Positions 2,409 through 8,727 of a stretch of DNA of 64,000 nucleotides are shown here, piece after piece. The DNA is from Geothrix oryzisoli (GTDB lineage Bacteria > Acidobacteriota > Holophagae > Holophagales > Holophagaceae). Under the pieces are notes generated by a model. It made no database searches. It was given only the letters and a program-made list of their open reading frames with translations, and was not told the origin of the DNA. Made by a program: the position numbers and the translations under genes. The stretch covers positions 191,875 through 255,874 of the forward strand of contig NZ_JAKZLB010000003.1 of NCBI RefSeq assembly GCF_022808865.1. Reading direction: 5' to 3'. Numbering within the stretch: position 1 is the stretch's first letter; every line of letters starts with the position of its first letter.

Positions 2409-2680
2409 AGAGTACCTAACAAAACCCCGACGAGGCCGCGAGAAAGCCAGGCGGGATGCGCCGAAAGGAAGGGCCCGCAGGGCGATGTGGTTCATCGTTC
2501 AAGGGCGCTGACGACGCGGGGCGCCCGCCTGGCTTTCTCCCTCCGGGCGAGGGGCGGCGGGCTTCTCGATGCTGCGTCAAACTCCTCGGCGGTGGGGTCC
2601 ACCATCGCCTTCGTCGCTTTCCTTGCCTCGCTCGCCCGGCGCCTCTCCCGCGGCCCCGTGGGGGTTCTGTTAGGCACTCT
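2409..2680. repeat. 272-bp inverted-repeat element, MITE-like or structured RNA
   Basis: The ends are imperfect terminal inverted repeats: 2409-2443 matches the reverse complement of 2644-2680 at about 28 of the first 32 positions (both begin AGAGT.CCTAACA.AACCCC). Inside lie two further inverted repeats arranged side by side: perfect 16-bp arms at 2440-2455 and 2524-2539, and perfect 9-bp arms at 2543-2551 and 2631-2639. On paper the whole unit folds as a three-way junction closed by the terminal repeats. It occupies nearly all of the gap between the divergent hydrolase and frr genes. Short ORFs in it on both strands are low-complexity and look spurious. No transposase is nearby. Confidence 0.75.
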
Positions 2681-2718
2681 AGGGTATAAAAGAAAGCTTC
2701 CGCTCTTTCGAGGTGCCC

Positions 2719-3294
2719 ATGTCCGCCCAGACCCCCGATGCCATCCTGCAGGAAACCAAGCGCCGCATGCATGCGTCCGTGGAGGCGCTCAAGAAGGAGA
2801 TGGCCACCATCCGCACGGGCCGGGCCAATGCCAGCCTGCTGGACAACGTGCATGTGGAGTACTACGGCTCCATGGTGCCCCTGAACCAGATGGGCACGGT
2901 GTCCGTGCCCGAAGCCGGCATGCTCGTGGTGACCCCCTTCGACAAGAGCGCCATCAAGGCCGTGGAGACGGCCATCCTCAAGTCCGACCTGGGCATCAAC
3001 CCCGGCAACGACGGCAACGTGATCCGCCTGCCCATCCCCATGCTCACGGAAGAGCGCCGCAAGGAGCTGGTGAAGGTGCTCCACCGCCTGGGCGAGGAGA
3101 TCAAGACCGGCGTGCGCAACATCCGCCGCGACGCCAACGAGGAAGTGAAGAAGCTCGAAAAGGCCAAGGAGGGCCACATCTCCGAGGACGCCGCCAAGAA
3201 GGCCCTGGACGACATCCAGAAGCTCACCGACGTCCACACCAAGGAGATCGATGAGGCCCTGAAGCACAAGGAAGTGGAGATCTTGAAAGTCTGA
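2719..3294 (+). CDS. frr: Ribosome recycling factor
   Basis: RRF, with EF-G, splits post-termination ribosomes in the cytoplasm. 191 aa, close to the usual 185. Hallmarks are IRTGRANASLLD near residue 30, VEYYGS, the central GND(G)NVIRLPIP segment and the C-terminal coiled helices (RNIRRDANEEVKKLEKA). I chose ATG 2719 over the in-frame GTG at 2713, which sits in the GAGGTG Shine-Dalgarno-like sequence. A TATAAA at 2685-2690 just outside the inverted-repeat element could be a -10 box, but no good -35 is visible. tsf and pyrH, common partners, are not adjacent. Confidence 0.95.
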   Translation: MSAQTPDAILQETKRRMHASVEALKKEMATIRTGRANASLLDNVHVEYYGSMVPLNQMGTVSVPEAGMLVVTPFDKSAIKAVETAILKSDLGINPGNDGNVIRLPIPMLTEERRKELVKVLHRLGEEIKTGVRNIRRDANEEVKKLEKAKEGHISEDAAKKALDDIQKLTDVHTKEIDEALKHKEVEILKV

Positions 3295-6796: not shown

Positions 6797-6883
6797 GCCG
6801 AGATGGCCGAGTGGTTAATGGCAGCAGACTGTAAATCTGCCACGCATCGCGTTACGGAGGTTCGAATCCTTCTCTCGGCACCA
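6797..6883 (+). tRNA. tRNA-Tyr (anticodon GTA)
   Basis: The acceptor stem gccgaga pairs with tctcggc (6873-6879), followed by discriminator A and encoded CCA (6881-6883). The anticodon loop reads CTGTAAA. A long variable arm, as in class II tRNA-Tyr, lies before the T arm (GGTTCGAATCC). First of three tRNA genes ahead of tuf. Confidence 0.97.
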
Positions 6884-6947
6884 GTCCTCCGGAATCCCAG
6901 CTCTCTGCGGGATTCGGGAGCGCTGGATCCCGTACTCGGGTTTCCAC

Positions 6948-7024
<77 letters not shown>

Positions 7025-7096
7025 CCCTCCCCGTCCGCCGGTTTCCGGCTGACGGCAAGGCCCCCGCCGCGTTCCGCACCGGCGGGAAGGTACCAA

Positions 7097-7171
<75 letters not shown>

Positions 7172-7224
7172 CCTTCGCACTGTTCACCCCCCATTACTTC
7201 TCTCCCACCCCTCAGGAGGTATCC

Positions 7225-8418
<1,194 letters not shown>

Positions 8419-8447
8419 AGCCGCTCCGCCCGACCTAGGAGGTTCCC

Positions 8448-8597
8448 ATGCGCGACATCGTTCACCTGCAGTGCCAAGACTGCAAGCGCAAGAACTACAG
8501 CACCACCAAGAACAAGAAGACCACCACAGGCAAGCTTGAGTTCAACAAGTTCTGCCGTTTCTGTGGCGGTTACCGGGTCCACCGCGAGGCGAAGTAG
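8448..8597 (+). CDS. rpmG: 50S ribosomal protein L33, zinc-binding form
   Basis: 49 aa, starting MRDIVHLQCQDCKRKNY and ending GGYRVHREAK. It keeps two CXXC pairs (CQDC and CRFC), i.e. the C+ zinc-containing form of L33. The ATG at 8448 is preceded by AGGAGG at 8437-8442. It lies 29 bases after tuf and just before tRNA-Trp and secE, its usual place. Confidence 0.97.
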   Translation: MRDIVHLQCQDCKRKNYSTTKNKKTTTGKLEFNKFCRFCGGYRVHREAK

Positions 8598-8651
8598 CCT
8601 CCGGTCCCGAGGGTTTCCGCCCGGCTCCCACCAGAAGCCGGGCGGTCCCAC

Positions 8652-8727
8652 AGGGGAGTAGCTCAGCTGGTAGAGCAGCGGACTCCAAATCCGCAGGTCG
8701 CGGGTTCGAACCCTGTCTCCCCTGCCA
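8652..8727 (+). tRNA. tRNA-Trp (anticodon CCA)
   Basis: The acceptor stem aggggag pairs with ctcccct (8717-8723), discriminator G, encoded CCA at 8725-8727. The anticodon loop ACTCCAAAT carries CCA, and the T arm is GGTTCGAACCC. Sits between rpmG and secE, as in many bacteria. Confidence 0.97.

Follow-up and report, generated by a model that had tools for sequence, protein, structure and literature searches.

A mobile two-hairpin repeat beside frr in Geothrix oryzisoli, with a core that recurs inside different terminal repeats in Acidobacteriota

A stretch of 272 bp just upstream of frr in Geothrix oryzisoli folds strongly on itself, which raises the question of whether it is a leader RNA of that gene or a mobile element that came to rest there. 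It lies in a window of 64,000 nucleotides, the whole stretch of DNA analyzed (contig NZ_JAKZLB010000003.1, positions 191,875 to 255,874), from a genome of 3.23 Mb. A first-pass annotation had described terminal inverted repeats enclosing two perfect hairpins in a three-way junction and had offered both readings, MITE-like or leader. Its structural description holds: the terminal repeats close the unit by sequence and by fold (2409-2444 with 2645-2680), the perfect 16-bp arms lie at 2440-2455 and 2524-2539, and direct reading places the 9-bp arms, CCGGGCGAG and CTCGCCCGG, at 2543-2551 and 2631-2639. Folding of the 272-bp unit reproduced the junction, and 38 bases separate its right end from the frr ATG (2719). 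The claim that such an order exceeds chance was also borne out. Judged against 200 dinucleotide shuffles per strand, the fold reaches -169.6 kcal/mol (z -8.4) on the plus strand and -158.7 kcal/mol (z -7.8) on the minus strand, and 0 of 200 shuffles was as stable on either.

Relatives refine the boundaries. The mobile unit spans 2410-2679 (GAGT...ACTC, 270 bp), and the first and last bases of the interval originally drawn, 2409-2680, are parts of the target triplets. No open frame is common to all 41 copies, the best being open in 29, no conserved protein stood out among them, and Rfam holds no matching family at gathering or relaxed thresholds. The features of the element are as follows.

2410-2679, unstranded: MITE, 270 bp (empty site; seven full-length genome copies; copies in other Geothrix).
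2407-2409, unstranded: left TNA target copy, TAA (TGA or TGG, once, in relatives; TNA rule over 71 elements).
2680-2682, unstranded: right TNA target copy, TAG (same basis as the left copy).
2409-2440, plus strand: left terminal inverted repeat, AGAGTACCTAACAAAACCCCGACGAGGCCGCG (sequence and fold; resembles the ends of the IS5-family element L208).
2649-2680, minus strand: right terminal inverted repeat (sequence and fold).
2440-2539, plus strand: core arm 1, a long hairpin with a 16-bp perfect base (fold, covariation, conservation).
2466-2470 and 2510-2519, plus strand: conserved internal loop of arm 1, AAGGA opposite GACGACGCGG.
2539-2547, plus strand: central linker joining the arms, CCC-TCC-GGG (phylum-wide as CCC-NNN-GGG).
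2543-2639, plus strand: core arm 2, an inverted relative of arm 1 (fold, covariation, arm comparison).
2571-2579 and 2618-2627, plus strand: conserved GCTGCGTCA opposite TTTCCTTGCC in arm 2.

Seven full-length copies occur in the window genome, the focal one included, and the other six share 78-86% identity with it; partial, nested and end-only forms are present as well. A DNA-level search found copies in 31 or 32 of 36 other Geothrix genomes and no match in 23 genomes outside the genus, and the exact end AGAGTGCCTAACAAAACCCC occurs in 68 stretches from Geothrix, Holophagaceae and a few Acidobacteria. The copies are dispersed and their flanks unrelated, as in a MITE. The copy search that the first-pass annotation had proposed thus gave the result it had tied to a mobile repeat, namely many copies with variable flanks.

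The focal locus itself preserves a record of the insertion. Close relatives carry an empty site, GGTCTC-TGA-GGTATAAA or GGTCTC-TGG-GGTATAAA, where the window genome reads GGTCTC-TAA-(2410-2679)-TAG-GGTATAAA. From this alignment, the locus beside frr is best read as an insertion that duplicated a TNA target of 3 bp, one base of which has since changed, although the one-base difference between its two triplets counts against it. Across 71 distinct elements, a TNA triplet flanks the left end in 58 and the right end in 53, and both ends carry the same triplet in 35, compared with 13.4 after permutation (maximum 24 in 2000). A target duplication and an empty site are further marks of a MITE, and together with the many copies in different flanks they uphold the MITE half of the earlier description.

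A candidate mobilizer exists within the genus. L208, a complete 869-bp insertion sequence in another Geothrix genome, is bordered by TTA on both sides, and its two overlapping frames match NF033580 (IS5-family), PF13340 (DUF4096) and PF01609 (DDE_Tnp_1). Its ends, GAACGGCTAACAAAACCC and GAGTGCCTAACAATAC, show 3-4 mismatches in 19 bases to those of the element, so that the two share ends as a MITE and its insertion sequence do. Both have GA(G/A) ends followed by CTAACAAAAC or CTAACAATAC, and both duplicate TNA; L208 differs from the element in its length and its two-frame transposase, and the hairpin core was not found inside it. Ends beginning GAG combined with a 3-bp TNA duplication, as in the ISfinder definition of the IS1031 group of the IS5 family, suit a mobilizer of that group, and L208 is IS1031-group-like. 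Given the nearly identical ends and the TTA duplication of this complete IS5-family element, mobilization in trans by an IS5-family transposase is the best-supported mechanism. In seven further carrier genomes, no PF01609 transposase had matching ends. Because no PF01609 match was found in the window genome and the copies there have diverged, the element is probably a fixed passenger in that genome today, its mobility past. The ends resemble integron attC R boxes (GCCTAAC / GTTAGGC), a likeness that was dismissed because the repeats are long and matched and come with a TNA duplication.

The interior of the element has a much wider distribution. The core (2440-2639, about 200 bp) consists of two arms joined by CCC-NNN-GGG, and arm 1 aligns to the reverse complement of arm 2 with a score of 26 (maximum 22 in 300 shuffles); arm 2 is thus an inverted relative of arm 1, and the core contains one hairpin module twice, in inverted orientation, with GCAAGGA opposite GACGCAGC in the internal loop of the module. 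A covariance model of the core, which matched on both strands, detected it in 29 of 199 genomes of Acidobacteriota, where about 0.2 matches are expected by E-value from a short calibration and the least significant matches, those in G085 and G095, are incomplete. Of these genomes, 14 are Geothrix, two other genera of the same family are represented, and 13 genomes fall in seven other families. Twelve non-Geothrix core genomes were rescanned. Independently of the model, inverted repeats flank 33 of 33 core copies, several of which share one genome, versus 1 of 165 shuffled flanks, and the unit length stays at about 268-285 bp with two shorter exceptions, one at a contig edge.

The ends around this core vary. 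A second set of copies in the window genome holds the core within AGGGCCTGTTTTCAAAGTGG ends, which match L228, an 861-bp IS5-family element, while in genome G018 the core lies within AGGAGCCTGTCCAAGTA ends, which match the 1537-bp IS1182 element L214. By a loose criterion there are at least ten end classes, and genome G155 alone contains several of them; three of the classes correspond to known IS types, two to IS5 and one to IS1182. Some similar classes may have drifted together with their transposases rather than been swapped, yet gradual drift does not easily connect IS5 with IS1182 ends. In these comparisons the core outlasts its ends, the opposite of an ordinary MITE.

Copies with the second kind of ends in the window genome (L009, L011, L012, L014, L190) often begin at CTAG or at a TAG/TAA triplet, sometimes at the apparent stop codon of the preceding gene. 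A copy with the second kind of ends (G000:C5:231290-231631; L015, L037) has an additional insertion of about 70-80 bp, with hairpins of its own, at the arm junction. Beyond chromosomes, blastn of the element against plasmids and phages gave no match, and a less stringent search using the second end type gave only short, chance-level ones. Exact core motifs were absent from viral contigs; degenerate motifs gave six and one matches there, which look like ordinary coding DNA, and four such contigs rescanned with the core model showed no significant match. A possible likeness to a betaproteobacterial repeat was compared with plasmids only and found no match.

Variation within the core follows its stems. 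In 41 full-length copies set in one orientation, changes are compensatory and Watson-Crick. An alignment of 30 copies with the first kind of ends and five with the second has 96.6% of cells paired, both sides changed in 31 of 55 pairs, and a covariation score of 0.275 (0.101 for shuffles, at most 0.061 for slid structures). A more diverse set of 27 representatives below 80% identity (median pairwise identity 45%) shows two or more Watson-Crick types in 44 of 53 stem pairs. Selection on RNA from one strand should favor either G-U or A-C intermediates; here, with two fixed G-U positions set aside, they are nearly balanced (33 G-U, 23 A-C). Quasi-palindromes are repaired by template switching during replication, which introduces double changes in a single step (PMC8794818). 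The covariation therefore supports a conserved palindromic structure and is no proof of a functional RNA, making the core a warning case in which strong covariation within a near-perfect palindrome does not suffice on its own. Mean conservation is about equal in paired and unpaired columns of the core, and the loop motifs and linker are among its most conserved positions, which argues for selection on the core.

Taken together, the element is very probably a TNA-targeting MITE mobilized by an IS5-family transposase, with a two-hairpin core that is conserved across the phylum, enclosed by changing ends and presumably selected in cis. An IS5-family (DDE) transposase would recognize the GAGTGCCTAACAAAA ends and insert the element into TNA targets, duplicating three bases, a movement deduced by comparing loci. 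The core, to go by its conservation, would be selected as a cis-acting, orientation-independent pair of hairpins that helps the element to propagate or persist by means of whatever transposase is available. The pair could act in DNA or, independent of orientation, in RNA, DNA being slightly favored. Template switching within the palindromes would keep both sides of each stem matched and, more speculatively, might copy a new end across the terminal hairpin onto both sides.

How the core acts can also be read differently. It is possible, if doubtful, that it works as RNA, transcripts in either direction folding into the two-armed form and stabilizing, cleaving or terminating host transcripts; the element would then be kept because its fold softens or exploits insertion near genes. 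The matches on both strands, the covarying stems and the sequence motifs kept in the internal loops would all suit this, and NEMIS and similar MITEs do act through such RNA folds (PMC2229807, PMC3733652), but the balance of G-U and A-C changes fits palindrome repair at the DNA level at least equally well. Less likely still is an ordinary MITE with an inert interior, in which recent horizontal spread alone explains the likeness across genomes and template-switch repair the covariation. Such repair can create as well as maintain matched stems (PMC8794818), and the balanced intermediates agree with it; however, loop motifs, linker and length are conserved in several families at 45% median pairwise identity, a divergence too great for recent spread.

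The family also varies in size. Larger versions of about 314, 408, 431-437 and 471 bp (G000:C4:353972-354379, L008, L031; L111, L125, L128, L129, L141, L143, L144) carry extra hairpin modules nested inside the arms, some with the TGACGC motif as well, and their size classes recur across several species. At the other extreme are end-only hairpins of 49-64 bp (G000:C1:888044-888107, G000:C4:391361-391424; L106, L119, L132), which seem to have arisen from the full element by internal deletion. In L096, two ends spanning 1048 bp were set aside as a chance pairing across other DNA.

These variants bear on whether the core is itself the mobile unit, inserting into the loop of hairpins made of terminal repeats only. 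One core within many kinds of ends would thereby be explained, and both the end-only hairpins and the nested modules are in keeping with it. The end-only units, however, retain differing remnants of the outer stem and arm 1 with varied breakpoints, which looks like internal deletion, and no core-specific duplication was observed, making this reading improbable.

The locus beside frr can now be considered for its own sake. Two features matter here.

2719-3294, plus strand: frr, ribosome recycling factor (PF01765, E 6.8e-68).
2685-2690, plus strand: TATAAA box of frr, a probable -10 element (in 30 of 30 frr upstream regions).

The right end of the element lies five bases before the TATAAA box. 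Since a consensus scan returned no sigma-70 promoter at frr, we infer the promoter role of this box; if it is the -10 element, transcription would start near 2697, and the insertion would have displaced everything upstream. That the element is a structured leader or regulatory RNA controlling frr is highly improbable: its very stable fold, its covarying stems and its proximity to the gene would suit such a role, but it precedes frr in only one of the 30 Geothrix loci compared, that of the window genome, and occupies many other loci, and a transcript begun at the conserved box downstream of it would exclude it. The leader half of the first-pass annotation therefore falls; the element is a mobile repeat and not an frr leader. 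Because the insertion parts the probable -10 box of frr, usually an essential gene, from its earlier upstream DNA, it constitutes a natural promoter experiment. Upstream of frr in other Geothrix (L164, L165, L175, L179) lies what appears to be a relic of another repeat, GCCTGTCC...TACTTGG, resembling IS1182-type ends, so the short intergenic region may have been a target more than once. Farther along the window, at 6797-8724, an Rfam scan located four plus-strand tRNA genes (starts 6797, 6949, 7097 and 8652).

Among the closest known repeats are bacterial MITEs such as RUP, NEMIS/Correia, ERIC and Coxiella QMITE1, some of which also fold strongly. Like them, the element is short, has no transposase gene, is bounded by terminal inverted repeats, duplicates its target, occurs in dispersed copies and folds strongly (PMC2229807, PMC3733652, PMC5896051). 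It differs in being about 270 bp and G+C rich, and in having a core conserved across families of a phylum within the ends of different IS families. REP/BIME and REPIN sequences, also multicopy, resemble it in pairing related hairpins in inverted orientation, and CGTC-type REPs likewise lack a known dedicated transposase (PMC3733652); unlike these, the element has arms several times longer and is closed by IS-type terminal repeats, and the window genome gave no match to a RAYT (Y1_Tnp, PF01797). Neither this repeat nor a structured core common to ends of different IS families turned up in a literature search of incomplete coverage, and the family across Acidobacteriota is apparently undescribed.

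MITEs are usually seen as remnants of one insertion sequence, so that selection is taken to preserve the ends. In the case described here, the interior persists across several families of a phylum while the ends change. There is an even chance that these are phylum-wide miniature elements in which the hairpin pair is the persistent unit, the ends are exchangeable and transposases of unrelated IS families can be used. If confirmed, this would mean that non-autonomous elements can change transposases while keeping a functional body, and the role of that conserved body would become a testable question.
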